A DNA stretch of 64,000 nt from Phyllobacterium sp. 21LDTY02-6 (GTDB taxonomy: Bacteria; Pseudomonadota; Alphaproteobacteria; Rhizobiales; Rhizobiaceae). The translations under genes were made by a program, and so were the position numbers. The stretch is taken from the NCBI RefSeq assembly GCF_023554255.2, contig NZ_JAMJWD020000003.1, positions 62,001 through 126,000 on the forward strand. The letters run 5' to 3'. Of the stretch, positions 16,470-53,775 are shown in pieces. The notes below the pieces were generated by a model. The model made no database searches, was not told where the DNA came from, and saw only the letters and a program-made list of their open reading frames with translations. The number at the start of each line of letters is the position of its first letter. Positions within the stretch are counted from its first letter, which is position 1.

Positions 16470-18014
16470 TCAGAGGACCTCGGCCAGGAAGCGTTTTAGC
16501 CGTGCGCTGCCGGGATTGTCGAAAATGGCGGATGGCGTGCCGGCTTCGATTACCCGGCCCTCATCCATGAAGACGACCTGGTCAGCGACCTTTCGGGCAA
16601 AGCCCATCTCGTGCGTGACGACGACCATGGTCATGCCTTGCCGCCCGAGATCTGCCATCAGGTCAAGCACGCCTTTTACCAGTTCGGGGTCAAGCGCGCT
16701 CGTTACCTCATCGAAAAGGATGACTTCCGGATCCATCGCCAGAGCACGAGCAATCGCCACGCGTTGCTGTTGGCCGCCCGAAAGGCCGCCAGGTCGGTGG
16801 TGCTGGCGGGAAGCGAGCCCCACATCGGCAAGCCGCGCCTCGGCAATCCGTTGGGCTTCCTGCCGGGGCATGCCCTTGATCCTGACGAGCGCTAGCATGA
16901 CGTTCTGAAGGGCCGTGTGGTCCGGAAACAGGTTGAAGTGCTGGAATACCATCCCGATACGCCGGCGCAGTCTTTCCGGCTTCATAGCCAGAATGCTCAC
17001 CCCATCGAGGAGCACGTCGCCGGCCCTCGGCTCGACTAGCCGGTTGATACACCGCAGCAAGGTCGATTTGCCCGAACCCGACGGACCGATGATGCAAGTC
17101 ACGGTGCCCGGCCTGACGGTAAGATTGACGCCTTTCAATACTTCAACATCGCCATAAGCCATAGCGAGATCGCTGATCTGGAGGCTGCCACCCTTGAACT
17201 GGGGTCGGGTTTCGCTACGGTGCCCGGATATTTGACCCGTGGCATTGGCGCCGGAATCGTCCAATTCGCTTAATTCGGCAAGACCGCTCGTGATGGGTCC
17301 ACCTCCGCGCTGCTTGCCGAGCCTCAGGCGGTCGTCAATATAGTTGACGAGATGCGTCAGCGGCACTGTGATGACGAGATAGAAAACGCCGGCCAGAAGC
17401 AGTGGTGACAGATTGCCCGTGACGACCGCCTGGTCCTGTCCCACACGGAAGATCTCGCGTTCGGATGCAAGCAGGCCAAGGAAATAGACGAGGCTCGAAT
17501 CCTTTACGTTGCCGATGAATTGATTGACGAGCGCCGGCAGCACGCGCCGGATCCCCTGCGGTATCACGATCAGTCGCATGCTTTGGCCGTAACTCATGCT
17601 GAGCGCCCGGCACGCCTCCATCTGCCCGCGTTCGACGCTCTGGATGCCCGCGCGGAATATCTCTCCCATATAGGCACCGGCGATCAGGCTAAGTGCAAGG
17701 ATGCCGAGCGGATAGGGTGACGGTCCGAAGAGTTCGCGACCGATGCGAGCGAAGCCTTGGCCGATCAGAAGAATGGTGACGATCGCGGGCAACCCACGGA
17801 AGATGTCGGTATAGATACGAGCTGGTATCCGCAGCCATCGCGACTGCGAGATCCCCATCACAGCGAGCACCATGCCAATGACCACCCCAAGCACGGTGGA
17901 GGCCGCTGCCAGTATCAACGTGTTTTTCAGTCCGATGGTGATCATGTTCGGCAGTACCGCCGCCATCGCCTCCCAGTCGAGGAAACTGCGGCGCAGGTTC
18001 TCAAGCCAGTTCAT
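16470..18014 (-). CDS. Fused amino-acid ABC permease and ATPase
   Basis: 514 aa. Residues 1 to about 225 are a GlnP/HisM-type permease ([21 protein letters not shown]; loop [26 protein letters not shown]). A hydrophilic linker of about 40 residues follows, then a full GlnQ-type ATPase with Walker [16 protein letters not shown], signature LSGGQQQR and Walker B VILFDE. Membrane and nucleotide domains are usually separate chains in this family, so one polypeptide can form the whole importer as a homodimer. AAGGGGA precedes ATG. It lies between the binding protein and the oxidase in the module B operon. Confidence 0.93.
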
Positions 18015-18109
18015 TTAATCCCCTTTACTGTCGTGCCCCAAGTGCCCTGTGCGGGCGGACGAGCTATCGCTTGGTCCTGCGTCCGCCCATGGCAAAGACC
18101 GGCATGAGT

Positions 18110-18952
18110 CTATTGCTTGGGAAGGTAAGCGTCCGGCATCGGCGAGCCGGGGAACCATTTTTCATACAGGTTTTTCCAGGTTCCATCTTGCATCGCGGCA
18201 TGAAGGGCGCCGTTCAGTGCCTCACGAAATGCCTCATTCCCCTTGCGCACGACAAAACCGGCGGGAGCGTCGAAAGACGGAATATTGACCGCGATTTTCA
18301 GATCGGAATAGCGGTCGCCATATTGCTTGGCAGCCTCATAATCGAGAAAATGCGCATCGATGGTCCCGTTGTTGAGAGCCGAAACGGCGGAATTGTTATC
18401 GGGGAATTTGACGATGTCGGCTTCCCCGAAATTCTTCTCAGCATATGTTTCCTGCAGCGTTCCCTGCACCACGCCGAGCCGTTTGCCTTTCAGGCCATCG
18501 GCGGAGGTGATCGTTGTATCCGGCGTCAGCACCGAGAGATAACCCGCGAGATAGCCGTCAGAAAAATCGACGGTCTTCTTGCGCGTGTCGGTCGTACCGA
18601 TCGCGGCAACGGCGACATCGAAGCGCTCATTGGCCACGGAAGGCAGGAGCGCCGCAAATTCCTGACCGGTGAAGATGACCTGATCTTTCTGAAATCCAAG
18701 GCGGCTGGCTACATTGAGGAAGAACTCGATATCGAAGCCGGTGAATTCCCCCTCTGCCGTAGTGAAGGCGTAAGGCTTGGAATCTCCCATCGTGCCGACG
18801 CTGATCACCTTTGGGTCGATCAGATTGTAGGGATTGCCTTCGGCGGCAGGGGTTTGTGCGACCGCTCCGAAGCTAACGGATAGAAGCGTCAACGCCATCA
18901 CCCCGCTACGAATGGGCGAAAGCAAGGGTGCGAAAATGCCGATTTTGCTCAT
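18110..18952 (-). CDS. Amino-acid ABC transporter substrate-binding protein
   Basis: 280 aa, family 3 periplasmic binding protein with a Sec signal peptide (hydrophobic core [18 protein letters not shown], cleavage near residue 33). Family features are [43 protein letters not shown] and [13 protein letters not shown]. First gene of the module B operon, with ribosome-binding site AGAGGAG. Two LacI-type operators lie 37-72 bp upstream. It should deliver substrate to the fused permease-ATPase downstream. The ligand is not readable from sequence. Confidence 0.93.
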
Positions 18953-20160: not shown

Positions 20161-20246
20161 ACGCCGGCCACGGGCTATTGCGCAGGCCCAGATTCTAGGC
20201 GAGGTATCATCGCACACATAGAAGAAAGCAAACGAGTGAGTTGAAA

Positions 20247-20966
20247 ATGGCGCCCAACGTAGACAAGCCAGCCAAACGGGGCCGCCCGCCCAAGGTGCTG
20301 CTGTCGAAGCGAGAACCTCTTGCCCAACAGGCGGCATCGACAATACGTGGGATGATCATTCGAGGTGAAATGGCGCCCGGCTCGCGCATCCCGGAGAGAA
20401 CGCTTAGCGAGACGATCAAAATATCGCGAACACCGCTGCGAGAAGCTCTGAAGCTTCTCGAGCGTGACGGCCTCGTTCAAATCTTGCAGAACCGGGGCGC
20501 CCGCGTGATGTCCTTTACTGTAAACGAGGCACGAGAGCTCTTCGAGGTCATCGCAGGCATGGAGAGCCTTGCTGCCCAGCTCGCCGCTCGCCGCATCACA
20601 CCTGTAGAACTGGAAAGACTGGAAGAGTTGCACGGGGCCATGCTGATCCATCATCGCAACCATGACAAGGATCCCTATTTTGCAGTCAACAATCAGATCC
20701 ATGATCTGATTGTCGAATTTTCAGGCAACAGCATCCTCAGGGCGACCCATGAGGGGCTCATGCTGAGAGCCCGTCGCGGTCGCTATATGGCTATCATGAA
20801 ACCGTCACGGTGGGACGAGTCGGTAGCGGAGCACGAGGCTCTGATGCAAGCACTCCGCAACCGTGATGCCTCTGCCGCGCGCCGCATTTGGCAGCTGCAC
20901 CTCAATCACACGGGCGATACGGTCTGTTCCGTTCTTTTGGAGCAACTGGCGGAGACCAGCGGCTGA
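20247..20966 (+). CDS. GntR-family regulator, FCD (FadR) subfamily
   Basis: 239 aa from ATG 20247; an in-frame TTG sits two codons upstream. A basic N-terminal tail KRGRPPKVLLSKREP precedes the winged helix (ASTIRGMIIRGEMAPGSRIPERTLSETIKISRTPLREALKLLERDG). The all-helical FCD domain has metal-ligand-type His residues in NNQIHDLIVEFSGN and VAEHEALMQAL. The gene ends base-to-base against the converging amidohydrolase gene (TGA then TCA, no spacer), so it is probably the local regulator of the nitrogen-scavenging cluster that follows. No clear operator was found. Confidence 0.88.
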   Translation: MAPNVDKPAKRGRPPKVLLSKREPLAQQAASTIRGMIIRGEMAPGSRIPERTLSETIKISRTPLREALKLLERDGLVQILQNRGARVMSFTVNEARELFEVIAGMESLAAQLAARRITPVELERLEELHGAMLIHHRNHDKDPYFAVNNQIHDLIVEFSGNSILRATHEGLMLRARRGRYMAIMKPSRWDESVAEHEALMQALRNRDASAARRIWQLHLNHTGDTVCSVLLEQLAETSG

Positions 20967-22319
20967 TCAGGCGGCACGAGCGCGTTTCCAGAGACGATCG
21001 GCGACCGTTTGGGCCGTGGCGATGATTTCGTCCTGGTCGGCCCAGGTCGCACGGCCGTCATCGATCAGTACCTTGCCGTCGCAGATCACCGTCCTGACAT
21101 TGGCGCCCGAGCCCAGATGCGCGACTACGCCGAAGCCATCCACAACCGGATGGAGATTGGGTGCGCTGGAATCAAGCAGGACCATATCCGCCCGGTAGCC
21201 CACAGCAACGCGTCCGACTTGATCGGCCACGCCTAGTGCCTGCGCCCCGCTCACCGTTGCCCAGCCAAATACCGTGTGTGCGTCGAACACAAAGGTCTCC
21301 TTCGCTCGCAGTCGCGCCGAAGCGAGCGCCATGCGCATCGTTTCGAACATATCTCCGGACTTGGTATCGGTGCAGAGCGTGATGTTGGCACCCGCGGCCG
21401 CAAGCGCAGCGATGGGTGCCGCCGCTCCAAAAGCAGCGTTTCCTATGGGCGCGTGAGCGACCTGAATGCCCGAATTCCCAAGCTTGTTTACCTCGTCTTC
21501 CTCCAGAAAGATGCAATGGGCAGCAACAAGCCGCTCGTTCAGAAGGCCGAGATCGTCCAGGAAGTCACTGGAGCGCATACCCTCGCGGGCCTTCATGTGG
21601 GCGATCTCCATACGCGACTGTGCGAGATGAGTGTGAACCTGACGGCCGTCCTTTTCCGCCATTGTTGCGATGAGCTTGAAAAGATCCCGGGATACCGTAT
21701 CCGGCGCGTGAGGTGCGTAGAAGCAACGGATCAGTCCTCCGTTGGCGCCATCCCAATCGTCAATAAGCGTCAGGTTGTCCGCAAGCGTTTCCTTTCCCAG
21801 TGCGACGTCTGGCTGGAACCGACCTTCGGCAAGAGCCGCAGTATCAACATCCATCACACGCCCTCCGAGAAAGGCACGAACGCCCGCCTCGGTTGCAGCC
21901 TTTGCCAGAGCAAGAGGCTTGCGATAGTAGTCGACGATCGAGGTACACCCGAAGCGAACCATCTCGAGGAGGCCAAGGCGCGACAACGCCAGAGTTTCTT
22001 CATCGGAGAGCCAGTGTCCCTGCGGAACACCCTTGGTATAGGCCGGGGCAAAACCAATATCCTCCACCATGCCGCGCACGATCATCAGCGGTGAATGATT
22101 ATGGGTATTGACGAAGCCCGGCATCAACATGCCGCCACGTCCGTCAATGCGCCTGTCTGCGAGACTCTTTCGCAACTCTATTGCCGGGCCGATGGCGGCA
22201 ATCGCGCCATTGCATATCCCTACGGCCATATCTCGTGCGATGGCTTCTCCAAATGTTACGATCGCAACATTCTCGACAAGCAAATCAAATCGGGCTCCTT
22301 GGGCGGCAGTGTTCGGCAT
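20967..22319 (-). CDS. Amidohydrolase, ATZ/TRZ-type aminohydrolase
   Basis: 450 aa TIM-barrel metal hydrolase. Metal ligands are visible in PGFVNTHNHSPL (H-x-H), VHTHLAQS, AAHCIFL and CTDTKSG. The family deaminates or dechlorinates N-heterocycles such as s-triazines, guanine, cytosine and S-adenosylhomocysteine. The usual H-x-x-E on strand 5 reads H-L-A-Q, so the general-base Glu appears replaced by Gln. ATG follows CGGAG. Transcribed leftward from the same intergenic region that drives the rightward transporter operon. The substrate is unknown, but the neighbours point to a nitrogen-rich ring or ureide. Confidence 0.87.
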   Translation of the reverse strand: MPNTAAQGARFDLLVENVAIVTFGEAIARDMAVGICNGAIAAIGPAIELRKSLADRRIDGRGGMLMPGFVNTHNHSPLMIVRGMVEDIGFAPAYTKGVPQGHWLSDEETLALSRLGLLEMVRFGCTSIVDYYRKPLALAKAATEAGVRAFLGGRVMDVDTAALAEGRFQPDVALGKETLADNLTLIDDWDGANGGLIRCFYAPHAPDTVSRDLFKLIATMAEKDGRQVHTHLAQSRMEIAHMKAREGMRSSDFLDDLGLLNERLVAAHCIFLEEDEVNKLGNSGIQVAHAPIGNAAFGAAAPIAALAAAGANITLCTDTKSGDMFETMRMALASARLRAKETFVFDAHTVFGWATVSGAQALGVADQVGRVAVGYRADMVLLDSSAPNLHPVVDGFGVVAHLGSGANVRTVICDGKVLIDDGRATWADQDEIIATAQTVADRLWKRARAA

Positions 22320-22440
22320 CAGTGTCTCCGATAGTCAGTGTGAGGAAATTATGTGCAGCAGCCACCAATATAGGCAGCAGGATCACCAAGTGTGATAATT
22401 ATTCATATATAATATGATGTAAATAAAGAATTTTTTGAAA

Positions 22441-22456
22441 TGGCATGCAATTTGCT
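22441..22456 (+). promoter_or_regulatory. Sigma-54 (-24/-12) promoter
   Basis: TGGCATGCAATTTGCT matches the RpoN consensus TGGCACG-N4-TTGCW with one mismatch. The invariant GG and GC are exactly 10 bp apart. Transcription would start near 22467, about 36 bp before the binding-protein ATG at 22503. This implies nitrogen control, for example by NtrC, of the 22503-30881 operon. No convincing enhancer site was recognised upstream. Confidence 0.72.
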
Positions 22457-22502
22457 TGGTTAGTGGCGTATTCGTCATTCCACGTAACCGAGAGAGATCG
22501 CC

Positions 22503-23549
22503 ATGACCAAGAATGGATTTTCAGACCTTACCCGTCGAAGCTTCCTGAAGAGCGCTACGGCGACGGCAACGCTGCTGGCTGCACCTGGAATACTGCGTGC
22601 CGAGACCAAGGAGCTGGTCGTCGGCGGGGCGGCAAGCCACACCAAATGGGTAGAGGAAATCGTCGCCCCGGCCTTCGAAAAAAAATATGGCGCGCGGATC
22701 ATTTTCGAGGGTACGAAATCACTCGTAAATCTTGAAAAAATGCAATCGAACAAGGCCAAACCGTATCTGTCCGTGGTGCAGATGGACGACCCGGTCATGA
22801 TCATGGCCGTCAATGAGAACCTGCTGACGCCGATCACGCCGGCACTTGCGCCAAATGTCGCAAAGCTTCGTCAGGGTACGGTCCATATGGACGGCATGTG
22901 GGCCAATTACGTCCAGCCCTGGGCGGGTATCGCTTACAACAAGTCGGTGAGCGGGGTGGACAGCTGGACCAAGCTCTGGGACCCGGCCTTCAAAGGCAGG
23001 GTAGTCATCCCATCCCTGCAGAACACGGAAGGGATGTGGACATTGTTCATGGCAGCCCATCTTGCCACGGGCAAGCCACTGGCCGAGGCGCAATATGAGA
23101 TTGATGCCGCATTCGCAAAGCTTGAGGAACTGAAGCCGAACCTTCTCAACGTCTATGCCGTCCTGACGCAATCCTTCAACCTTCTGGAGCAGAACGAAAT
23201 TGCCATGCTGGCCGGACAGTTCTCCTCCTACACCATTCCGAGGGTGACGGAGGGGGCGACTATCGACCTTGCTGCTCCAAAGGAAGGCATCTTCGCAATG
23301 CCGTCTGGCATTTGCCTGGTCAAGGATGGCCCCAATCCCGAGCTCGCGGCAGCCTATGTAAACGAGATGCTGGGCGCTGAACTGCAGAGCATCCTGGCGG
23401 AATCCACATACTCTCTTCCCGCCAACACCGAAGTGAAGGGTGTCGATATCGCGCCGGCAGGTATCGAGGTTTTCGGTCCGGACTGGGCATTCGTATCGAA
23501 GAACCGCGCCAATTGGATCGATCGTTTCGATCGCATGATGGCGATCTAA
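22503..23549 (+). CDS. ABC transporter substrate-binding protein, PotD-like, Tat-exported
   Basis: 348 aa extracellular solute-binding protein of the spermidine/putrescine and Fe3+ class. The N-terminal TRRSFLKSATATATLLAAPG is a twin-arginine signal, so it is exported folded. Core features are EIVAPAFEKKYGARIIFEG and WDPAFKGRVVIPS. First gene of a long rightward run (22503-30881) whose gaps are mostly overlaps or a few bp. A sigma-54-type promoter lies immediately upstream. The ligand could be a polyamine, an amide or a ureide. The enzymes downstream favour a nitrogenous compound. Confidence 0.92.
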   Translation: MTKNGFSDLTRRSFLKSATATATLLAAPGILRAETKELVVGGAASHTKWVEEIVAPAFEKKYGARIIFEGTKSLVNLEKMQSNKAKPYLSVVQMDDPVMIMAVNENLLTPITPALAPNVAKLRQGTVHMDGMWANYVQPWAGIAYNKSVSGVDSWTKLWDPAFKGRVVIPSLQNTEGMWTLFMAAHLATGKPLAEAQYEIDAAFAKLEELKPNLLNVYAVLTQSFNLLEQNEIAMLAGQFSSYTIPRVTEGATIDLAAPKEGIFAMPSGICLVKDGPNPELAAAYVNEMLGAELQSILAESTYSLPANTEVKGVDIAPAGIEVFGPDWAFVSKNRANWIDRFDRMMAI

Positions 23550-23607
23550 TTTTCTCGGCAAAATGACGGCGGGCCGTCCACGCCCGTCCTCCACAAAGGG
23601 AAGCGGA

Positions 23608-24678
23608 ATGTATCTGGACGTAAAAGGTATAATCAAGAGCTATCGGGACAACACCGTCCTTGACGGTCTCGATTTCTCGGTTGCCAGGGGCGAGCTGGTA
23701 TCCCTGCTCGGCCCCTCAGGCTGCGGAAAAACCACCTTGCTGCGCATGATAGCAGGCCTGGTTACGGCGGATCATGGCACGATACGGCTGGCTGAACGCG
23801 ATGTGACCGGATTGCCGGCCCATAAACGCAACGTTTCGGTGGTCTTTCAGAACTACGCATTGTTCCCGCATCTCAATGTTTCTGAAAATGTCGGGTTCGG
23901 CCTGGCCGCACGCGGAGTTTCCAAGGCAGAGCAAAGGACCCCGGTCGAAGAAGCTTTGGCATTGGTGCGCATGGAGCAATTCGCCGACCGACCTATTTCG
24001 GCACTCTCAGGCGGGCAGCAACAGCGTGTAGCCGTCGCCCGCGCACTGGTCGTGGCCCCTGATTTGCTGTTGCTGGATGAGCCTTTTTCGGCGCTCGACC
24101 GCAAATTGCGAGAAACCATGCAAGTCGAACTCAAGGCTCTCTTGCGCTCTCGCGGCATTACGGCTGTTTTCGTAACCCACGATCAGGAAGAGGCGCTCGC
24201 CGTGTCCGATCGGATCGCCGTCATGAACCGTGGGCGGATTGAGCAATATGGCGGACCGATGGAGCTCTATTCCCGCCCGGCAACGAGTTTCGTCCTCGAT
24301 TTTGTTGGTATGTCGACCCGTATCGCTGGAACGGTCAAGAAGGTCGAGGGTCGTTCGCTGCTGATCTCGACGGCCTATGGGGAGGTAACTGCACCGGGTA
24401 ACTTTATCCAGGGCGCGAAGGTCCTTCTCGGTGTTCGGCCGGAACATCTCGACCCCGTGCCGGGTGCTGCCGGCAGCAACAGCATAACCGTGGCACTCAG
24501 CGATGTCATGTGCCTCGGGGCGAAGACACTTGTTCACGCCACCGCTTCGGGCGCCGACCGCATCATCTGCGAGCAATCGGGCGCCGCCCAGCAGGGCCTG
24601 CCTTCGACCGGCGAACCGGTAACGCTCTCCTGGAACGTGGAACAGACATTGGTCTATCCGGCGGAGGGAGTGCAATGA
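23608..24678 (+). CDS. ABC transporter ATP-binding protein, PotA-like
   Basis: 356 aa. ATPase domain with Walker A LLGPSGCGKTTLLR, signature LSGGQQQR and Walker B LLLLDEPFSALD, followed by a TOBE domain (about residue 265 on: FVGMSTRIAGTVKKVEG, VLLGVRPEHLD). ATG 23608 has AAGCGGA just before it; an in-frame upstream ATG at 23563 would add 15 untypical residues. It energises the importer formed with the two permeases that follow. Its last codon overlaps the next start by 4 bp. Confidence 0.94.
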   Translation: MYLDVKGIIKSYRDNTVLDGLDFSVARGELVSLLGPSGCGKTTLLRMIAGLVTADHGTIRLAERDVTGLPAHKRNVSVVFQNYALFPHLNVSENVGFGLAARGVSKAEQRTPVEEALALVRMEQFADRPISALSGGQQQRVAVARALVVAPDLLLLDEPFSALDRKLRETMQVELKALLRSRGITAVFVTHDQEEALAVSDRIAVMNRGRIEQYGGPMELYSRPATSFVLDFVGMSTRIAGTVKKVEGRSLLISTAYGEVTAPGNFIQGAKVLLGVRPEHLDPVPGAAGSNSITVALSDVMCLGAKTLVHATASGADRIICEQSGAAQQGLPSTGEPVTLSWNVEQTLVYPAEGVQ

Positions 24679-25541
24679 GCCAATTCAACGGAGCCGCAGC
24701 CGCGCCTGGCCGACGAACTGATCCATTCCTGCTTCTGGCTGTTCCGGCGCTCTGTCTGCTTGGCATGCTGTTTGTATTGCCGATCGTCTTCCTGCTCGTG
24801 AAAAGTTTCAGGGACACGACGGGCAATCTATCGATTGCCACTTATGTCGCGTTTTTCTCCGATCCCTTCATGCTGACGGCACTTCGCCGTACTATTGTGG
24901 TCGCGATAGAAACCACACTCCTGACACTCCTTCTTGGCTATCCTACCGCCTTTGCTCTGGCACGCGCTCGCGGATTTACCCAGACAATCATACTCATAGC
25001 GATGATCCTCCCGCTGTCGGTCGGCGTGATCGTCAAGGCCTTTGCCTGGTCTATCGTTTTCCGTACCGACGGCGTGATCAACAAAACACTGCTCGGTCTT
25101 GGCATCATCGACCAACCCTTGCGGCTGCTTTTCACCGAAACAGCCCTGGTGATCGGTGCGACAAATATATTCCTGCCGTTCATGGTGTTACCAATCTACG
25201 CGGTCATTCGCCAGACCGACCCAAACCTTCGCTCAGCTGCGGCTACGCTGGGTGCCGGGCCGTTGTTCTGTTTCTTCCGGGTAACCTTGCCACTGACGCT
25301 TCCTGGTATCGTCGCGGGCGCCGCCTTTGTCTTCTCAATGGCGGTGGCGATGTATGTGATACCCAACCTGATCATCGGCGAACGCACGCAGACCCTGTCC
25401 ATGCTGATCGCCAGGTCCTTTCTCTATCTTCGGAACGAACAAATGGGGTCGACCATATCAACCATATTGCTTGCGATTGCGGCATTCATCGTCATCGTCT
25501 CGTCCGTCATCCTGAAGAGACTTTCCGGGAGGCAGGCATGA
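24675..25541 (+). CDS. ABC transporter permease, PotB-like
   Basis: 288 aa integral membrane protein with about six hydrophobic segments, beginning FLLLAVPALCLLGMLFVLPIVFLLVKSF. The EAA-type loop LRSAAATLGAGPLFCFFRVTLPLTLPG contacts the ATPase. The start codon overlaps the ATPase stop (ATGA) and is preceded by GGAGGGAG. It pairs with the next gene as a heterodimeric channel. Confidence 0.93.
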   Translation: MSQFNGAAAAPGRRTDPFLLLAVPALCLLGMLFVLPIVFLLVKSFRDTTGNLSIATYVAFFSDPFMLTALRRTIVVAIETTLLTLLLGYPTAFALARARGFTQTIILIAMILPLSVGVIVKAFAWSIVFRTDGVINKTLLGLGIIDQPLRLLFTETALVIGATNIFLPFMVLPIYAVIRQTDPNLRSAAATLGAGPLFCFFRVTLPLTLPGIVAGAAFVFSMAVAMYVIPNLIIGERTQTLSMLIARSFLYLRNEQMGSTISTILLAIAAFIVIVSSVILKRLSGRQA

Positions 25542-26335
25542 CCCTCACCGATAGAATTGCAACCGTTGCAAGCTGGATTGTCGCGCTTGCGGTCTGCATC
25601 TATTTACTGACACCACTCATCATAACGGTGATCGTGTCCTTCACTTCTTCCAGCGTCTATACGCTACCGCCGCCAGGCTGGTCATTGCGTTGGTACGAAA
25701 CCATGGCGCGCAAGCATGATTTGATCAGTGCCTTGTGGCTTTCGGTCAATCTTGCGTCGATCTCCACGATAATCGCGCTGGTGGTTGGCACACTCGCCTC
25801 GCTTGCCATTGTACGCGGCCGCTTTCCGGGGCGCGAAATACTGGCCACGGTGACAGTGTCGCCGCTGATGATGCCAGGGCTCGTTATCGGTGTCGCATTG
25901 CTGCAGTTCTTCCGCGATCTCGGCTTGCGCGATGCCTATTGGAGCCTTTTGCTGGCCCATATCGTCATCACCCTACCCTATATCGTGCGCACGCTCGTCG
26001 CGGCGCTGGAAAAGTTCGACTTCTCCCTGATCGATGCTGCCCAGACACTTGGCCTTCCATATTCCCGGGCGATTATCAAAGTCATGGTGCCGGGCCTGGC
26101 ACCCGCATTTCTAACCTCTGGCATGTTCGCTTTTCTCGCGTCGATGGACAATTATCCGATCTCGATCTTTCTAACAGACGCCTGGAACAAGACACTTCCG
26201 ATCAAGATGCTGCAATATCTCGAGGAAGCGCCGGATCCGACGATCGCTGCCGTTTCATCCGGCCTCATCGTGCTCGCCCTGACGGCATTGGTCATAGGCT
26301 CCAGAACTGTCGGCCTTAACCGGATGATCCAATAA
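25538..26335 (+). CDS. ABC transporter permease, PotC-like
   Basis: 265 aa with six predicted membrane segments (SWIVALAVCIYLLTPLIITVIVSF first). The coupling loop is DAAQTLGLPYSRAIIKVMVPGLAP. It overlaps the previous permease by 4 bp and the next gene by 1 bp (TAATG), indicating tight translational coupling from transporter into the catabolic enzymes. Confidence 0.93.
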   Translation: MTLTDRIATVASWIVALAVCIYLLTPLIITVIVSFTSSSVYTLPPPGWSLRWYETMARKHDLISALWLSVNLASISTIIALVVGTLASLAIVRGRFPGREILATVTVSPLMMPGLVIGVALLQFFRDLGLRDAYWSLLLAHIVITLPYIVRTLVAALEKFDFSLIDAAQTLGLPYSRAIIKVMVPGLAPAFLTSGMFAFLASMDNYPISIFLTDAWNKTLPIKMLQYLEEAPDPTIAAVSSGLIVLALTALVIGSRTVGLNRMIQ

Positions 26336-27267
26336 TGGCCGATAGACGAGATTTCATTGGTTATCGCGATGGATATCCCGCCGTCGACTGGCCGGGAGGT
26401 GCGCAGCTCGCAGTTTCCCTTGTCGTCAACGTCGAGGAGGGATCGGAACTCTCGATCGCCGATGGAGACGAGCGCAATGAAAGCGTCTACGAGGCGCGCG
26501 AAGAAGTCATAGGCGTACCGGACCCGTGCATGGAGAGCCATTATGGCTACGGTCCGCGTGCCGGTTATCGTCGCATAGTCGATGTGCTTGCAAAGCATGG
26601 CGTGCCAGCGACCTTTTCCTGCTGTGGCCGGACGGCAGTGCGGTCGCCATGGCTGGTTCAAGACGCGATAGCTCGCGGCCACGAAGTAAGTTGTCACGGC
26701 TGGCGATGGGAGAGCCTGGCGGGCATGACAGAGGACGAGCAGCGGCGAAATATCGCTCGAACATTCGAAGCGATCCGGAACGTGACCGGCATGGCACCAA
26801 GCGGCTGGCATACACGCTCGGCTTCCACGCCGGAGACCAGACGGTTGCTCGTTGAACACGGCGGCTTCCTTTACGATTCCGACGCCTATGATGATGACGC
26901 ACCCTACGTCGTCTCCGTCGGCAACGGGCCGCATGTAGTCCTTCCCTACGCATTCGACACCAATGATATGCGCTTCCAGCCGGGCGGCGGGTTCGTGCAT
27001 CCGGAGGATTTCAGCCGCTATTGCCTGGCTGCCTTTGACCGGCTGTGGCAGGAGGGCGCCGGTGCGCCGCGCATGTTGAGCATTGGGTTGCACCTGCGCA
27101 TCATCGGCCGCCCGGCTCGCATCGGCGCTCTTGAGGCATTGCTGGAGGCGATTGCAGCACGCGGCAATATCTGGTTCGCCACACGTGCCCAGATTGCTAC
27201 CCATTGGCGGCGAGCTACGGGCCTGCCTGATTTTCAGCCGGCTGGAGCTAATGATGCAACTATATGA
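26335..27267 (+). CDS. Polysaccharide-deacetylase-fold hydrolase, PuuE allantoinase-like
   Basis: 310 aa, NodB/CE4-fold protein of the PuuE group. It has SLVVNVEEGSE near residue 30 where deacetylases carry a metal-binding Asp pair, plus ESHYGYGPRAGYRRIVDVLAKHGVPATFSCCG and GHEVSCHGWRWE, typical of PuuE. PuuE-type enzymes open the hydantoin ring of allantoin, so a cyclic ureide or imide is a reasonable substrate here. It sits between the permeases and an amidase, which fits ring opening followed by amide hydrolysis. The reaction is inferred. Confidence 0.85.
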   Translation: MADRRDFIGYRDGYPAVDWPGGAQLAVSLVVNVEEGSELSIADGDERNESVYEAREEVIGVPDPCMESHYGYGPRAGYRRIVDVLAKHGVPATFSCCGRTAVRSPWLVQDAIARGHEVSCHGWRWESLAGMTEDEQRRNIARTFEAIRNVTGMAPSGWHTRSASTPETRRLLVEHGGFLYDSDAYDDDAPYVVSVGNGPHVVLPYAFDTNDMRFQPGGGFVHPEDFSRYCLAAFDRLWQEGAGAPRMLSIGLHLRIIGRPARIGALEALLEAIAARGNIWFATRAQIATHWRRATGLPDFQPAGANDATI

Positions 27268-28609
27268 AGACGTCATAACCATGAGCGCCCGAGAAATAGC
27301 GGCTGCCGTAAACACCGGAAGGCTGTCCGCCATAGACGCTGTTCGCGCCCATCTCGCCATCATATCGGAGCGGAACCCTTCGCTGAATGCGATTGTTGCC
27401 ATTGATAGCGGGAAATCGTTGCAACAGGCGCGTATTGTCGATGAGCGCATAGGCGGCGGGGAATGTCTTCCGCTTGCCGGCGTGCCGATCATCGTCAAGG
27501 ACAACATATGGGTAGAGGATTGGCCGATAACTCAGGGTTCGCGCCTTTTCGCCAATTTCATCGCTGACAGCGATGCCGAGGCCGTCAGGCTGGCGAGACA
27601 GGCTGGAGCCGTCATCGTCGGGATCGGCGCTTGCTCCGAATTCGCTGCCAAAGGCGTTACAGCAACGCCGCTTTATGGCACGACCCGACACCCGCTGGCT
27701 CACTCCCTGACGCCCGGCGGCTCGTCGGGCGGCAATGCAGCCGCGCTTGCTGCCGGCATGGCACCGTTGGCACTCGGAACAGATGCCGGCGGATCGAGCC
27801 GTCGCCCACCAGCCCATTGCGGCATCGTCGGATTCAAGCCCAGCCAGGACGCGATCCCCTATGGACCGGGATTTGCCGAGCCGTTCTGGGGCGTTTCAGT
27901 CATCGCGCCAATGGGCCGGACGGTCGATGACTGTGCGCTACTATTCGAGGCATTGACCGGCAATACACCTGCTCCGCAGCGCCCGTTGCGTCTCGGTTAC
28001 CATCCCACCTTCGGTATTGATGCCGCCGTCGACGCTGATGTTGCTGCAGCTTTTGAAGCGGCACGCAGACGAATTTTGGCGGCGGGTGTGGAGATGGATG
28101 CAGTGACAATGGCCTGGCCCGAGGGAACCAATGAAGAAGTACTCATGCCGCTTCAGCATGCTGGCCTTGCCATGCTCTATGGGGAGCGCTGGCAGCACGA
28201 ACCAGACCTCTTTGATCCCGATATCGGATCTCAAATCGAACGCGGCCTGTCGCTCCCGGGCGTCGCAGTTGCCCGAGCCCTTGATCAGTCACACAGGCTG
28301 CGCGGTTGCCTGGACCATATATTTGCCCAGTACGATCTACTCATCGGCTTGACGACACCCTGCGGCCCCTGGCCCCATGACCGCCTTGGTCCCGAGACCA
28401 TCGGCGGCAAGCCCGTCTCACCCCGCGATCATGCTGCCCTGACCCCTCGCTTCAATCATGCCGGTCTGCCAGCCCTCTCCTTACCGTGCGGCTCTGACCG
28501 CAATGGTTTGCCGGTTGGCATGCAGATCGTTGGACCCGCCGGCGCGGACACATTTGTACTGGCAGCGGCAGCGCAGTTTGAAACGATTCTTGCAGGCCCG
28601 GTTGCTTAA
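27254..28609 (+). CDS. Amidase (amidase-signature family)
   Basis: 451 aa, GatA/AtzE-like. The Ser-cisSer-Lys triad is visible: Lys in GVPIIVKDNIWV, cis-Ser in TPGGSSGGNAAALAAG and the nucleophile region GTDAGGSSRRPPAHCG. It hydrolyses a carboxamide or carbamoyl group to release ammonia. Starts at ATG 27254 or the adjacent ATG 27251, inside the last codons of the deacetylase gene, with GGAG just upstream. Typical family members show GTDTGGSIR at the nucleophile, and the A-GG-SS-RR variant here is mildly divergent. Substrate unknown. Confidence 0.9.
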   Translation: MQLYEDVITMSAREIAAAVNTGRLSAIDAVRAHLAIISERNPSLNAIVAIDSGKSLQQARIVDERIGGGECLPLAGVPIIVKDNIWVEDWPITQGSRLFANFIADSDAEAVRLARQAGAVIVGIGACSEFAAKGVTATPLYGTTRHPLAHSLTPGGSSGGNAAALAAGMAPLALGTDAGGSSRRPPAHCGIVGFKPSQDAIPYGPGFAEPFWGVSVIAPMGRTVDDCALLFEALTGNTPAPQRPLRLGYHPTFGIDAAVDADVAAAFEAARRRILAAGVEMDAVTMAWPEGTNEEVLMPLQHAGLAMLYGERWQHEPDLFDPDIGSQIERGLSLPGVAVARALDQSHRLRGCLDHIFAQYDLLIGLTTPCGPWPHDRLGPETIGGKPVSPRDHAALTPRFNHAGLPALSLPCGSDRNGLPVGMQIVGPAGADTFVLAAAAQFETILAGPVA

Positions 28610-28625
28610 CCGGAAGGAGACAGTG

Positions 28626-29411
28626 TTGAAGATATTGATGATCAACCCCAATACATCGACCGAGATGACGGACCGGATGATTGCAACCGCGCAGTCCGTT
28701 CTTGCGCCCGACACAGAGCTGATTGCTCATACGGCGACACGGGGTTTCCCCTACATTGCAAGCAGAGCTGAAGCGATGATTGCGGGCAATATCACGCTCG
28801 AAATGCTGGCGGAACATCATCACGGCTGCGACGCCGCTGTCATCGCAGCCTTTGGCGATCCAAGTCTCATTGCAGCACGCGAACTCTTCGAAATCCCGAT
28901 TACTGCCATGGCCGAGGCCGCCATACTGACTTCCTGCATGCTGGGCGAGCGCTTTGCCATGCTGACATTCTCCCGAACGCTGGTTGCCTGGTACGAGGAT
29001 GCGGTGGCGTTGGCCGGACTGACCCATCGTTGCGCGGCGATCCGTGTGCCGGACGTTAGCTTCAAGTCGGTATCGACAGTTCAATACGAATTGGAAAACG
29101 AAATCGTCGCACTGGCTGAAAGGACGGTGAAGGAAGATGGCGCCGACGTACTGATACTCGCCGGTGCGCCGCTGGCAGGTCTCGCGCAACGCATAGCCCA
29201 TCGTTCACCGGTGCCGCTGGTCGATCCTCTGGTCGCTGCAGTCAGTCAGGCCCAAACGCTTGCAAGGATGAAACCAAAGGCGGCCAGTGCCGGACGGTTT
29301 GCGCGGCCGGGCCCCAAGGTTACGGTTGGTCTGCCGCAATCGCTTGCCGACTGGATCGAGCATCGCGGGCCGGATCGGCAGTCGGATCTAACCCTCAATG
29401 CGAGCATGTGA
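28626..29411 (+). CDS. Asp/Glu/hydantoin racemase-fold protein lacking both cysteines
   Basis: About 261 aa from TTG 28626; GTG 28623 is equally possible. AAGGAGA lies just upstream. The fold opener ILMINPNTSTEMT is typical of hydantoin and allantoin racemases. The two catalytic Cys regions read VIAAFGDPSL and LILAGAPLAGL, where active racemases have A-C-F-G-D-P and G-C-A. Both cysteines are therefore missing, and racemisation by the usual two-base mechanism is unlikely. Part of the sigma-54-linked operon. A different reaction such as decarboxylation or hydrolysis is possible. Confidence 0.82.
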   Translation: MKILMINPNTSTEMTDRMIATAQSVLAPDTELIAHTATRGFPYIASRAEAMIAGNITLEMLAEHHHGCDAAVIAAFGDPSLIAARELFEIPITAMAEAAILTSCMLGERFAMLTFSRTLVAWYEDAVALAGLTHRCAAIRVPDVSFKSVSTVQYELENEIVALAERTVKEDGADVLILAGAPLAGLAQRIAHRSPVPLVDPLVAAVSQAQTLARMKPKAASAGRFARPGPKVTVGLPQSLADWIEHRGPDRQSDLTLNASM

Positions 29412-29423
29412 GAGGTATCCACG

Positions 29424-30881
29424 ATGGATAGCACGATCGATCTCATCGTCATGGCCGGCCTGATCGTCACGATGGATCAGGGTCGCAGCCTAATCACGGA
29501 TGGTGCAGTGGCGGTCAATGACGGGAAAATTCTCGCGGTGGGACCGAGAGATGCGATTTCTCAACGGTATGCTGCTTTGAAGACAGTGGGCGGCAATCAC
29601 GCGATTGTCATGCCCGGCTTTATCGACGGGCACTCTCACGCTGGCCACGGATTGATAAGAACAATGGGCAGCGATGACTTCCCAGCGTTTCGCGAGGCAT
29701 GCCGGAAGGTCTACATGGAGTCAGCGTCGCTTGATTTCTGGGCCGCGGAGGCTCGCCTGTCGGCTCTCGAACGACTCAAGGCAGGCGTTACCACGGCAAC
29801 GCTCTATCTTGGAGGTGGGGACGAGAACAACCGCTCCGACACACCAGAAGTTGCGACCACTTACGCAGCCGCGTTCTGCGGTGTTGGAATGAAGCTGGTC
29901 CTGGGCATTGGCCCGACGAGGCCACCGTTTCCACGGCATTACACCCATTTTCGGGGAGATCGGGCGCAAACGGTAGAAGTGAACTTCGATCGACAGCTCT
30001 CCGTCTGTGAGGAGGTTGCGCGGATTCTGCCGGGGGCGCGAACTCGGGTTGCCTTTACTGCGCCGGTCATAAATCCCGCCATTCATCGGGACAGGCATTT
30101 TCGCATGCTCTGCGAGATGGCGCAGACCATGAAAGACCTTGCACGGAAATACGATACCCTGCTCATGATCGACGGCCACCGCGAGGGAACTGTCGCCTTT
30201 GCCAACGGGCTGGACATTCTCGATCATCGAACTCTGCTCTCGCATGCGATTGGACTGAAAGAAGACGAAGTGGCGCTGATCGCGGAGCTTGGTGCGGTCG
30301 TATCCAATAACGCTGTTTCGGCAAGCGGCACATGGGATCGCTGCCCTTTGGTAGAGCTGCTTGCTGCTGGGGCCCGGGTATTTTTATCGAGTGACGGGCT
30401 GGCACCCGATGGTGGAACAGACATGTTCGACGTGATGCGCGGCGCAATGCGCTACCATCGTTCCATGTGCCGCAATCCCAATATTCTTCCGCCGGGCCGT
30501 GCGCTTTCCCTGACCACGATCGAAACCGCCAGAGCGCTCGGGATAGATCATGAGGTCGGGTCGATTGAGCCGGGGAAGCGGGCCGATATCATTCTGGTCG
30601 ATACGCAAAAACCACATCTGCAACCCTCGGTCATGCCGCTTCATCAGCTTCTCATGTACGCCAATGCCAGCGACATCGACACGGTTATAGTGGACGGGCA
30701 GGTAATGATGGAGAACCGGCAGGTTGCCCAGCAGGCTGAAATACTCTCGGCCAGCCAGGTAGAATGCCAGATCATGCTGGACCGCTCCGGCCTGCGAACA
30801 TCGCTCGACCTGCCGAAAAGCTTCTGGTCCGACAGTTACGACCGCCCTGTTCGTGATGGTTTAAACCATCACGACAGATGA
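29424..30881 (+). CDS. Amidohydrolase family protein (second aminohydrolase)
   Basis: 485 aa TIM-barrel amidohydrolase. It shows the N-terminal composite sheet, then PGFIDGHSHAGHGLIRTMG (H-x-H), LLMIDGHREG, LLSHAIGL and FLSSDGLAPDGG as metal or active-site loops. At strand 5 the usual H-x-H reads D-G-H and no Glu sits three residues after the His, so the chemistry may differ from ordinary deaminases. Last complete gene of the sigma-54-linked operon. A 24-bp perfect palindrome occupies its final codons. Substrate unknown. Confidence 0.86.
   Translation: MDSTIDLIVMAGLIVTMDQGRSLITDGAVAVNDGKILAVGPRDAISQRYAALKTVGGNHAIVMPGFIDGHSHAGHGLIRTMGSDDFPAFREACRKVYMESASLDFWAAEARLSALERLKAGVTTATLYLGGGDENNRSDTPEVATTYAAAFCGVGMKLVLGIGPTRPPFPRHYTHFRGDRAQTVEVNFDRQLSVCEEVARILPGARTRVAFTAPVINPAIHRDRHFRMLCEMAQTMKDLARKYDTLLMIDGHREGTVAFANGLDILDHRTLLSHAIGLKEDEVALIAELGAVVSNNAVSASGTWDRCPLVELLAAGARVFLSSDGLAPDGGTDMFDVMRGAMRYHRSMCRNPNILPPGRALSLTTIETARALGIDHEVGSIEPGKRADIILVDTQKPHLQPSVMPLHQLLMYANASDIDTVIVDGQVMMENRQVAQQAEILSASQVECQIMLDRSGLRTSLDLPKSFWSDSYDRPVRDGLNHHDR
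30851..30874. repeat. 24-bp perfect palindrome in the 3' end of the amidohydrolase gene
   Basis: The left arm TCGTGATGGTTT is followed directly by its exact reverse complement. It ends five bases before the TGA stop. As RNA it could form a 10-bp stem with a 4-nt loop. No T-tract follows. It could be a terminator, an operator or part of a target site. Confidence 0.7.
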
Positions 30882-30906
30882 GTGATATTAGGGGCACGAC
30901 CGCGAT

Positions 30907-31085
30907 ATGTTCGACATTATTATCCAAGGTGGACGCGTCTCAGCGGCAACACGACCGTTCTTCCCTTCTGCCCGGGGAAGGAACTGCCCGCACTGGTGGG
31001 CGACGGCCAGACATCCTTCAAGTTATTCATGGCAGCTGTCACATTGATTAATCGTCAACGTGCCTGCGGTATCTGGGTTTCATGA
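30907..31085 (+). pseudogene. Remnant of a dihydropyrimidinase/hydantoinase-like gene
   Basis: Reading from ATG 30907 gives MFDIIIQGGRVSAA, the classic start of a dihydropyrimidinase or D-hydantoinase, with AGGGG upstream. Around 30980-31040, in another frame, comes KELPALVGDGQTSFKLFMA, which resembles the TSFK-FM block from the middle of the same family. The piece between is missing and the frame is broken, so this looks like an internally deleted, frameshifted relic of the last enzyme of the operon. From 31086 to 31310 only a short inverted repeat was seen. Confidence 0.6.
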
Positions 31086-31212
31086 ATAGGCAGGTCCCGA
31101 CGTACAAAAATCGTCGCTTTCACCGGAGCACAATCCATCGTGGCGCCGCTCTTTTCGATGCGGCCAAACCGGCAATGAACGGAAATTCTTTCTCACCTGC
31201 GGGCGGCAATTC

Positions 31213-31310: not shown

Positions 31311-32648
31311 ATGACCGGAAAACGGCAGTTGAAACTTGGTTTCATGCTTCACGGCGTCGGCATGGGATGGGGCGATTGGCGCCATCCGGATGCGGATCCG
31401 ACGGCCAGCACCAATCTTGCCTATTACAAGCGTCAGGCCCAGCTTGCCGAGGCGGCAAAGTTCGACTTTCTCTTCGTCGCCGACAGCGTCTTCATCACCG
31501 AGAAGTCGAGCCCACATTATCTCAACCGCTTCGAGCCGCTGACCATACTGTCCGCCCTCGCCGGTGCCACGTCGCATATCGGCCTGGTCGGCACGCTGAC
31601 GGTAAGCTACAGCGAGCCTTTCAACGTCGCCCGCCAGTTCGCCTCGCTCGATCATATCAGCGGCGGCCGTGCCGGGTGGAACGTCGTCACCTCCTGGCTG
31701 GAGGGCAGCGCTTCCAATTTCAGCAGGCAGGCGCATCTCGCCCATGACGTGCGATACCGGCTCGCCGACGAATATCTCGATGTCGTGCAGGGCCTGTGGG
31801 ACTCGTGGGAAGACGATGCGCTGGTTCACGACAAGGCGCGCGGCGTCTTCTTCGATCCGCAGAAGCTGCATACGCTGAACCACAAGGGCGAGTTCTTCGA
31901 GGTCAGAGGACCGCTCAACATCGCTCGCTCGCCGCAGGGCCAGCCGGTGATCTTCCAGGCGGGCGCTTCGGAAGATGGCCGGAATTACGCGGCGAGGCGC
32001 GCCGACGCGATCTTCGTCCATCATGACAGCCTCGAAGAGGGCCGGAACTATTATCACGACCTGAAGCAGCGTGCCGCGGGCTTCGGCCGCGACCCGGACA
32101 AGCTCTTCATCCTGCCCGGCATCCGTCCGGTCGTCGGCTCCACGGAAGCGGAGGTCGAGCGGAAGTACCAGGAATTTGCAAATCTCACATCGATAGAGAA
32201 CGCGCTCTCCATGCTCGGCCGGCCGTTCAACGATTATGATTTCCTGCAGCACGATCTCGATGCGCCCTTCCCCGACATTGCCGCCCATGGCGTCAATTCC
32301 AACCAGAGCCAGTCGAGCCGGATCATCGAAGTCGCCCGCGCCGGCAATCTGACGCTGCGCGAGGTGGCGTTGCGCTTCGCCACGCCGCGCAGCGATTTCG
32401 TCGGCACGCCGGAGCAGGTCGCCGATGCTTTCGAGCGCTGGCTGGTCGAGCGCGGTTCGGACGGCTTCGTCATCAACGTCTCATTGCCGAAGGAGCTTGA
32501 AGTGCTGGTCGAAACCGTGATCCCGATCCTGCAGAAGCGCGGCATTTTCCGCGAGGAATACGAATCGGAAACCTTCCGCGGCAATCTCGGCCTAGACGTG
32601 CCGCGCAACCGCCATGCGGCAAGCGAGGTTCCTGTCGCCGCCGAATGA
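31311..32648 (+). CDS. LLM-class flavin-dependent monooxygenase, NtaA/SnaA/DszA type
   Basis: 445 aa, bacterial-luciferase-like TIM barrel of the nitrilotriacetate/dibenzothiophene-sulfone monooxygenase branch. Motifs are GWGDWRHPDADP, AAKFDFLFVADSVFI, GTLTVSYSEPFNVARQFASLDHISGGRAGWNVVTS and PVIFQAGASEDGRNYAA. It uses reduced flavin and oxygen to cleave C-S or C-N bonds. The reductase partner is not adjacent, although a quinone reductase is encoded at 35327. ATG follows GGAGGAT. First gene of an operon with an SsuABC-type transporter, so an organosulfur substrate is likely. Confidence 0.9.
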   Translation: MTGKRQLKLGFMLHGVGMGWGDWRHPDADPTASTNLAYYKRQAQLAEAAKFDFLFVADSVFITEKSSPHYLNRFEPLTILSALAGATSHIGLVGTLTVSYSEPFNVARQFASLDHISGGRAGWNVVTSWLEGSASNFSRQAHLAHDVRYRLADEYLDVVQGLWDSWEDDALVHDKARGVFFDPQKLHTLNHKGEFFEVRGPLNIARSPQGQPVIFQAGASEDGRNYAARRADAIFVHHDSLEEGRNYYHDLKQRAAGFGRDPDKLFILPGIRPVVGSTEAEVERKYQEFANLTSIENALSMLGRPFNDYDFLQHDLDAPFPDIAAHGVNSNQSQSSRIIEVARAGNLTLREVALRFATPRSDFVGTPEQVADAFERWLVERGSDGFVINVSLPKELEVLVETVIPILQKRGIFREEYESETFRGNLGLDVPRNRHAASEVPVAAE

Positions 32649-32682
32649 TCCCCCAAGAAGCCCGACCGGAGCAAGGTGATTC

Positions 32683-33657
32683 ATGACCATTCTTTCCAGA
32701 CGCTTATTCAATGTCCTCGCCGGCGGGTTGGCCGCGCTCTGCCTCGCAACACCGCTTTCGGCTAGTTTCGCCGAGGACCTGTCGGACGTCACGCTCCGCA
32801 TCGGCGATCAGACCGGCGTGGTGCGCGCCAAGCTGGAGGCGGCCGGCCTGCTCGAGAACGTGCCCTACACGATCGAATGGTCCGTCTATGCGGCAGCCGT
32901 CAACCTGCATGAGGCGTTGAAAGCCGATGCCGTCGATATCGGCTCGGCCGCCGACAGCCCGACTGTCAGCGCCATCGCCGGCGGTTCCAGGATCAAGGTT
33001 GTCGCCGCCTTTTCCAATGGCGGGCGCGGCACGGCGCTGCTCGTCCCGGAAAACAGTCCGATCAAGACCATCGAGGACCTGAAGGGCAAGACGATATCGC
33101 CAACGACGCGAGGCAGTGTCGCTCATTACCTGACGGTTGGCGTGTTGAAGAAAGCGGGCATCAAGGAAGGTGAAGCGAAACTGGCCTTTCTGACGCCGGC
33201 CGACGCCAGTGCAGCGTTTCAGACAGGCAGCATCGATGCCTGGGGCATATGGGGCGTCTATCTCGCCCGCACGGTCGGGATACAGAAGGCCCGCGTGCTG
33301 ATCGACGGCGAAGGCATCAATACCGGCCATGGCGTGCTCAGCGCCACCGACAGCGCGCTTGCCGATCCGGGCAAGGTAGCGGCGATCGCCGACTTCGCCG
33401 CCCGGATCGAACAGGGTTACAAATGGTCGGCCGAAAACAAGGATGCCTATATCGATTTCTATGCCGCCTTCTCGAAGCAGGACAAGTCGATCATCGCCGA
33501 AACCTATGACGACGAGGCGGCGTTCAAACGTGTGCCGCTGGACGATGCCTTCACCGCTTCGCTGCAGAACGTTTTCGCGACCTGGAAGGAAGCGGGCGTG
33601 CTCTCCGGCAACCTCGACCTGTCGAAATATGTCTATCGCGACCTGCCGACCAACTGA
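32683..33657 (+). CDS. Aliphatic sulfonate ABC transporter substrate-binding protein, SsuA-like
   Basis: 324 aa periplasmic protein with a Sec signal peptide (FNVLAGGLAALCLATPLSASFAED). Features of the SsuA/TauA/NrtA family are LRIGDQTGVVRAKLEAAG, EWSVYAAAVNLHEALKADAVDIGSAADSP and GSIDAWGIWGVYLA. It collects an alkanesulfonate or similar anion for the permease and ATPase that follow. It lies 34 bp after the monooxygenase. Confidence 0.9.
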   Translation: MTILSRRLFNVLAGGLAALCLATPLSASFAEDLSDVTLRIGDQTGVVRAKLEAAGLLENVPYTIEWSVYAAAVNLHEALKADAVDIGSAADSPTVSAIAGGSRIKVVAAFSNGGRGTALLVPENSPIKTIEDLKGKTISPTTRGSVAHYLTVGVLKKAGIKEGEAKLAFLTPADASAAFQTGSIDAWGIWGVYLARTVGIQKARVLIDGEGINTGHGVLSATDSALADPGKVAAIADFAARIEQGYKWSAENKDAYIDFYAAFSKQDKSIIAETYDDEAAFKRVPLDDAFTASLQNVFATWKEAGVLSGNLDLSKYVYRDLPTN

Positions 33658-33674
33658 TCCATGGGAACCGGCCG

Positions 33675-35302: not shown

Positions 35303-35326
35303 CGAAGAGCCATGTCGCAGCGCCGG

Positions 35327-36115: not shown

Positions 36116-36180
36116 GGAAACCGTCCGGATGGAGTTCGACATAGACCGGCAGGATAGCCTTGCCCGAACTATTCCGCTAT

Positions 36181-48378: not shown

Positions 48379-48417
48379 TAGCACCGGAGAGCCAAACTTC
48401 AACCGCATTTGCGGCGC

Positions 48418-49068: not shown

Positions 49069-49099
49069 AATCCCTCGTCAAAATGCACGCCGTCCGCTC

Positions 49100-49109
49100 T
49101 TGTATACAA
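49100..49109. promoter_or_regulatory. MatR operator TTGTATACAA
   Basis: Perfect 10-bp palindrome in the matR-matA intergenic region, preceded by TC. It resembles the published MatR site TCTTGTATACACGA as remembered, and fits the TNGTATACNA-type sites of FCD GntR proteins. Confidence 0.72.
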
Positions 49110-49319
49110 ATTAGTTGACTATGCACACAAGATGGGTGAAACATTATATATCATTCTCAGCATGGAGTGGAACAAGCGAAGGAACAAGGACCGGCCATGC
49201 AAACGCTGCCGGATTATCCCGTTCATGCAGGGCGGAACCCGGCAGTGTCAGAGGTGTTCGGGAAGATATGGATGCAACCTCATTGCTAACTGAACAATCC
49301 CGCGGATCGGAGTCATACA

Positions 49320-52285: not shown

Positions 52286-52377
52286 CAGCCGCGAAAGAGG
52301 CGTAGGGAGGAACTCACGCCGCATCAATGAGGAAAAGACGGCCGTCCTCTGGCGCGCCGTAGAGGGAGGAATTTGCC

Positions 52378-53730: not shown

Positions 53731-53750
53731 CGATCGGCAGCGTTAAAGAT

Positions 53751-53775
53751 GGCGCGGGCGTCCCGTTCCCGCGCC
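53751..53775 (+). terminator. Rho-independent-like terminator after matC
   Basis: GGCGCGGG (53751-53758) pairs with CCCGCGCC (53768-53775) around a 9-nt loop, followed by TTTA. It lies 20 bp after the matC stop. Confidence 0.6.

Follow-up and report, generated by a model that had tools for sequence, protein, structure and literature searches.

A candidate cyclic ureide operon with a separate subfamily of PuuE-like ring openers in Phyllobacterium sp. 21LDTY02-6

A closely packed run of genes at positions 20241 to 31100 of the analysed stretch of Phyllobacterium sp. 21LDTY02-6 DNA (the window, 64,000 nt of contig NZ_JAMJWD020000003.1, positions 62,001 to 126,000) is best read as a nitrogen-regulated operon apparently built of re-tuned purine-pathway ring openers, and with slightly better than even confidence we propose that it serves the scavenging of nitrogen from a small cyclic ureide, hydantoin- or allantoin-like. 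The run encodes a GntR-type regulator, an amidohydrolase on the opposite strand (AH1), the substrate-binding protein (SBP), ATPase (ATP) and two permeases (PermB, PermC) of an ATP-binding cassette (ABC) importer, a ring opener resembling the allantoinase PuuE, an amidase (Amd), a racemase-fold protein (Rac), a second amidohydrolase (AH2) and the remnant of a D-hydantoinase gene. A first-pass annotation of this DNA had proposed an operon for a cyclic ureide, imide or N-heterocycle matching no described one, which for a ureide or imide stands as the best reading, while racemase and deaminase activities are unsupported, because the diagnostic catalytic residues are altered. No characterised operon with this gene set was found in the open-licence literature, with subscription papers mostly outside its coverage, and the operon is not described in the available portions of PMC6015842 and PMC4016543.

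The PuuE-like protein (26335..27267, plus strand), given as such in the first-pass annotation, belongs to the PuuE family over nearly its full length, with the Pseudomonas PuuE chains 1z7a and 3cl6 as its best solved relatives and the family motifs EEG, DTNDMRF and GLHxR..GRP kept, yet it scored 287 bits against the PuuE equivalog TIGR03212, below the cut-off of 424.6. It differs from PuuE allantoinase also in its neighbours and in one loop, which reads GWHTRS in the window protein, GWYTGR in the Pseudomonas chains and GIYQGK in the ordinary-type PuuE of the window genome; the GWYTGR loop may have a role in specificity. The signature G[WF]H[TV][RK]S was present in all 19 sequences of at least 52% identity and absent from all 28 more distant rows, which include at least two duplicates; a clean break in identity between 52 and 46% separates the subfamily from the others. 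Fourteen of 15 further members also carry the signature; the exception (L087, G349:C92:39988-40893) has a Cys closing the loop signature and one in-frame TAG. Counting the window genome each time, matches to the subfamily at E 1e-88 or better occurred in 11 of 297 Rhizobiaceae genomes, 13 of 385 genomes of the class and 4 of 299 of the phylum, with a twelfth, partial Rhizobiaceae match (L049, 59%) below that line. At four loci (L043 8634-10444, L046 8665-10454, L040 and L044) a further PuuE-like paralogue with the loop GFFCRG adjoins or lies near the GWHTRS copy. It has another racemase-fold gene beside it, accompanied at three of these loci by a related aminohydrolase, and represents a further uncharacterised PuuE subfamily.

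We compared the neighbourhoods of 32 subfamily genes with those of 21 ordinary PuuE genes. The cases were the window, L040-L049, L050 and L051 from the amidase scan, the plasmid loci L075, L076, L077, L078, L081 and L082, and 13 loci from the class sample (L101-L113); L039, from the same genome as L050, was dropped. The controls, all from Rhizobiaceae and not checked against the PuuE cut-off, were the ordinary-type PuuE of the window genome (L120) and 20 genes chosen from matches of 38-42%. Stretches varied in length from 11 to 25 kb, and thresholds were set by us. A racemase-fold gene was found in 26 of the 32 subfamily neighbourhoods and in 0 of the 21 ordinary ones, and the difference held without the window and without those four loci to which the amidase also leads (21/27 versus 0/21, p 1.7e-8). 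The remaining partners were likewise confined to the cases (SBP and PermC 15 each, ATP 17, Amd 7, D-hydantoinase 5 and AH1 5), although sub-threshold matches of 23-27% to AH1 and of 31-44% to the ATPase did occur in the controls.

Gene order was conserved well beyond Phyllobacterium. Rhizobium rhizolycopersici (L050) carries GntR, AH1 on the opposite strand, SBP, ATP, the permeases, PuuE, Amd, Rac, a second racemase-fold gene (Rac2) and D-hydantoinase, and an Allorhizobium pseudoryzae plasmid (L075, where PermB went unlisted owing to an overlap filter) has the same order through Rac2 and D-hydantoinase. The order is kept as far as Rac in Puniceibacterium antarcticum (L051) and, without AH1, in Salipiger (L076), with hydA beyond a LysR gene. 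In Roseibium (L055), which has GntR, SBP, ATP, PermB, PermC, Amd and Rac, a D-hydantoinase gene lies beyond GntR and an AH1 of 41% identity follows downstream. Outside the window's class, L164 combines Amd, PuuE (GWHTKS), Rac and another Amd at a distance of about 5 kb from a D-hydantoinase gene; this locus and L165 stand outside the case and control counts. Of 25 loci from the genome scan we used L050-L055 and L058, and of 11 plasmid records with the amidase we used five, the other six being Azospirillum. The amidase was detected in 4 of 294 Rhizobiaceae genomes, all of which also bear the PuuE subfamily (3/3 without the window genome, p 3e-5). The comparison of amidase and PuuE-like neighbourhoods that the first-pass annotation had called for thus showed that other genera share the order, that the PuuE-like proteins form their own subfamily and that D-hydantoinases occur as partners. 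Since the window genome also encodes, at another place, an ordinary-type PuuE (L120) about 5 kb from a 5-hydroxyisourate hydrolase (HIUase), the module would represent an extra pathway. A pair of aminohydrolase and carbon-nitrogen hydrolase genes, convergent with the PuuE module, was seen in L077 (13109-15484) and L165 (10626-13010), 96% and 85% alike; neither member of the L077 pair matched a family above cut-off, and the carbon-nitrogen hydrolase of L077 (Methylobacterium) had no solved structure at E 1e-20.

The window amidase (27251..28609, plus strand; PF01425, 272 bits) retains its Lys-Ser-Ser elements in KDN, GTDAGGSS and GGSSGG, Lys-cisSer-Ser being the catalytic motif of amidase-signature enzymes. 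Eight loci found through this amidase (L052, L053, L054, L079, L080, L083, L114 and L115) have a HIUase/transthyretin-like gene (10431-10784 in L079) in the place of the PuuE-like one, in the order ATP, SBP, two permeases, HIUase-like gene on the opposite strand, MFS gene and amidase, with Rac in five of the eight stretches and D-hydantoinase in four. True HIUase ends in YRGS. In the five of the eight HIUase-like proteins for which the four terminal residues were aligned, they are FLGV, FRGV or FRGA. This suggests that ring openers of ureide pathways have been exchanged beside one amidase family, and because the HIUase-like alternative adjoins that same family, a ureide is favoured over an imide as the substrate.

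Rac (28623..29411, plus strand, with a GTG startcodon at 28623 preceded by AAGGAG; PF01177, 146 bits against a cut-off of 31) shares the fold family of HpxA-type allantoin/hydantoin racemases, which are its best solved relatives (3qvk, 5lfd), but has Ala and Gly at the positions of allantoin racemase Cys79 and Cys184. The same pair was found in 12/12 other orthologues and in the three Rac2 rows aligned, whereas the two comparison rows, family members from L040 and L048, are Cys/Cys. Across all 28 racemase-fold matches, a set in which one genome is counted twice, 22 were Ala/Gly, two Cys/Cys, two Cys/Gly and one Ile/Gly, with one having a Cys and its second site unaligned. The allantoin racemase KpAllR uses Cys79 and Cys184, OpaE loses most or all of its activity without its cysteines, and a Thr/Cys pair is also known in the family, with no member lacking both cysteines described in the available text of that source (PMC12661438). 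If the window protein does not work by two-cysteine proton transfer, it would be a lyase or hydrolase on the racemase fold, or a binding partner.

AH1 (20967..22319, minus strand; PF01979, 156 bits) is a TRZ/ATZ-type amidohydrolase with a Gln (HTHLAQS) where the solved relatives 4f0r and 4dzh have Glu, and HLAQS is kept in 5/5 distinct orthologues of at least 41% identity. The catalytic Glu of TRZ/ATZ deaminases lies in HxHxxE, so with Gln in its place ordinary deamination by AH1 is doubtful. AH2 (29424..30881, plus strand; PF01979, 112 bits) is a divergent amidohydrolase seen in this module in the window only; its best relative reached 41% in 294 Rhizobiaceae genomes and about 40% in plasmids, it was not found in the syntenic loci of relatives, and on that 41% we rejected it as a member of the core module. 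Both aminohydrolases of the first-pass annotation are hence present, but they are not collinear members of one module, as AH1 is encoded on the minus strand and AH2 has been added outside the conserved gene set.

A sigma-54-type -24/-12 element (TGGCAT-N5-TTGC, TGGCATGCAATTTGC, 22441..22455, plus strand) is located 62 bases ahead of the ATG of the SBP gene. Since the window contains three exact matches to the box versus 0.38 expected, evidence from a single window is weak; the form TGGCAY-N5-TTGC was, however, found on the sense strand 50-114 bases before the SBP gene in 8 of 16 loci (the window and 7/15 others, namely L044, L047, L050, L075, L106, L112 and L113), against a random expectation with mean 0.105 and maximum 2 in 3000 draws. 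It was absent upstream of the SBP gene in L051, L055, L076, L077, L078, L081, L107 and L108, and the HIUase-type arrangement has the box ahead of the ATPase gene in one of eight loci. The sigma-54 promoter read from the window alone thus has correct spacing, precedes the first gene and is kept in relatives, and its recurrence suggests that some members of the family are under nitrogen control.

The D-hydantoinase remnant (30907..31100, plus strand), listed in the first-pass annotation as a dihydropyrimidinase relic, is recognised from a partial tblastn and DNA match and from the gene order of relatives, where the gene follows the same run. The frame from 30907 has a dihydropyrimidinase-like opening (read by eye), and 30963-31061 resembles residues 140-172 of the R. 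rhizolycopersici enzyme (tblastn E 0.003; DNA 41/57, E 0.011), with AH1, a distant homologue, itself scoring E 8e-4 in the same search. The window gene has shrunk to a start and approximately 33 residues, whereas an intact gene is found downstream of Rac in L050 and in L075 (an unbroken 89% match). The D-hydantoinases of L050 and L055 scored 531 and 526 bits, above the TIGR02033 cut-off of 393. Between Rac and the hydantoinase position stands Rac2 in L050 and L075 and AH2 in the window, and the window genome may have lost Rac2 and the D-hydantoinase tail, leaving the remnant, and gained AH2. Two D-hydantoinases above the cut-off are encoded elsewhere in the window genome. One shares 68% identity with the L050 enzyme and has none of the module enzymes around it; this enzyme could substitute for the lost one.

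The remaining genes concern regulation and uptake. The GntR/FCD transcriptional regulator (20241..20966, plus strand; PF00392, 64.1 bits; PF07729, 90.8 bits), as given in the first-pass annotation, has orthologues of 77% identity in L050 and L075 and of 49-53% in L051, L055 and L076, and AH1 is convergent with it and divergent from the transporter genes. The SBP (22503..23549, plus strand; SBP_bac_6, 100 bits) has the twin-arginine signal TRRSFLK, in agreement with the export by the Tat route predicted earlier, and a twin-arginine motif was present in 16/16 SBP orthologues (15 by regular expression, L078 by eye only). It is followed on the same strand by the Pot/Phn-type ATPase (23608..24678; ABC_tran and TOBE_2, with PotA/PhnT2-like matches), the PotB-like PermB (24675..25541) and the PotC-like PermC (25538..26335). 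These are the subunit types of Pot-type importers, in line with the polyamine-type permeases first noted, but every window subunit scored below the equivalog cut-offs of NCBIfam. The start of PermB lies inside the stop of the ATPase gene, PermC overlaps PermB, the final base of PermC is the first of the PuuE-like gene, the amidase gene overlaps the PuuE-like gene, and gaps of 13 and 12 bases precede the racemase-fold gene and AH2, respectively. As the genes from PermB to AH2 overlap or sit 12-13 bases apart, a single transcript is likely. Rfam returned nothing in the window at gathering scores.

In the pathway that we propose from these gene assignments, the ABC importer would bring in the ring compound, the PuuE-like enzyme would open it by hydrolysis of a cyclic amide bond, and the amidase would hydrolyse the open-chain ureido or amide product and so free nitrogen. 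Rac may act on an intermediate, by a route other than two-cysteine proton transfer, and AH1 probably prepares a related substrate. We put forward only tentatively the broader proposal of an undescribed proteobacterial ureide pathway in which PuuE (GWHTRS) and HIUase (without the YRGS end) have been re-tuned around one amidase module, together with a cysteine-less racemase fold of non-racemase function.

The main rival substrate class to a cyclic ureide is a cyclic imide, with the PuuE-like protein as an imidase opening a succinimide- or glutarimide-type ring to the half-amide and the amidase as a half-amidase yielding dicarboxylate and ammonia. This pair of steps has been assigned to HxnM and HxnN of Aspergillus nidulans, HxnM being 64% identical to a cyclic imide hydrolase of Pseudomonas putida and similar in structure to the PuuE relative HP0310, and HxnN being an amidase with a FAAH1-type catalytic triad (PMC9304392). 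The same two enzyme types, a ring opener of the PuuE/HP0310 family and a nitrogen-freeing amidase, adjoin each other in the window. A D-hydantoinase-producing Blastobacter has reportedly both imidase and half-amidase. HxnM, however, is nearer to HP0310 and belongs to a nicotinate pathway for which the available text mentions neither an importer nor a racemase-fold gene (PMC9304392), whereas the window protein scored 268 bits to PuuE (1z7a) and 57 bits to HP0310 (3qbu), the closest structural relative of HxnM, in a comparison with these two solved chains. With the HIUase-like gene standing in for the PuuE-like one, which points to ureides, and with Rac resembling allantoin racemases, we consider the imide route unlikely, yet the strongest of the alternatives. 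An operon for polyamines or the cell wall, pairing a polyamine importer with a true polysaccharide or peptidoglycan deacetylase, would account for the PotA/B/C-like matches, for the Polysacc_deac_1 domain and for the occurrence of HP0310 homologues near polyamine importers (PMC3084791), but it is highly improbable, as PuuE is the closest family, PuuE-type chains are the best solved relatives, no signal peptide was seen by eye in the N-terminus of the PuuE-like protein, and its partners are small-molecule amide hydrolases.

A second ordinary allantoin or purine operon, consisting of PuuE allantoinase, allantoin racemase and importer, draws on the same closest solved relatives, PuuE and the allantoin/hydantoin racemases; it is nevertheless improbable given the score below the PuuE cut-off, the GWHTRS loop, the identity break, the absence of both racemase cysteines, the lack of any neighbour shared with any of the 21 ordinary PuuE loci at our thresholds, and the ordinary-type copy that the genome already has. 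Still less probable is an operon of the standard D-hydantoinase (hyu) or reductive pyrimidine kind that handles N-carbamoyl amino acids and includes additional genes. It would explain the D-hydantoinases of L050 and L055 and the relic in the window, and in bacterial hyu clusters D-hydantoinase and racemase genes also stand close together, as in two Bradyrhizobium strains, but the clusters of Aminobacter, Rhodobacter and Bradyrhizobium pair hyuC with hyuH (PMC3546935). The window instead has the PuuE-like protein and the amidase, with no N-carbamoylase or dihydropyrimidine dehydrogenase family among its 17 scanned frames, a mere remnant of D-hydantoinase and a racemase-fold protein without catalytic cysteines. 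An s-triazine or cyanuric acid route was rejected, as no cyanuric acid hydrolase family was found in the 17 scanned frames and the ammeline and AtzE scores were far below cut-offs.

Several observations weigh against the reading as a ureide operon. Opening of cyclic imides is also known among the wider relatives of PuuE (PMC9304392), and the case loci are not phylogenetically independent, with all controls from Rhizobiaceae. The module is loose, since 17 of the 32 GWHTRS neighbourhoods lack the SBP and 25 of 32 lack the amidase at the set thresholds; L082, L104 and L109 have no partner at all, and L113, L077 and L081 have transporter genes only (plus AHmeth in L077). The PuuE-like gene is absent from the 21 kb of the Roseibium locus, despite its transporter, amidase and Rac, while L165 has transporter and PuuE but neither a racemase-fold gene nor the amidase. 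In the class sample the amidase was found in three other genomes, one of which has the PuuE subfamily, at a separate genomic place (L113, L115), and L116, found via the amidase, has it without partners.

Other parts of the window hold further gene groups. Just downstream, 31311-36142 looks like a separate sulfonate-type operon: genes for an NMT1-type binding protein, a permease and an ATPase (the last two assigned by eye) come after that of a luciferase-like monooxygenase, and a flavodoxin-fold reductase is encoded on the other strand. Upstream, 16470-18952 encodes a permease-ATPase fusion ABC protein (514 aa) and a family-3 binding protein, divergent from a LacI-type regulator. The region of approximately 48410-53780 is 87% identical over 5.3 kb to a Phyllobacterium zundukense plasmid, with matched genes for malonyl-CoA synthase, malonyl-CoA decarboxylase, an SLC13 permease and GntR.

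The PuuE-like subfamily offers a testable set of ring-opening hydrolases that the labels 'polysaccharide deacetylase' and 'allantoinase' have concealed, and the racemase-fold proteins form a family whose residues contradict its name. Were the substrate found, it could explain a nitrogen source of root- and soil-living bacteria, supply enzymes for the chemistry of hydantoins or imides, and allow the annotation of other genomes to be corrected.

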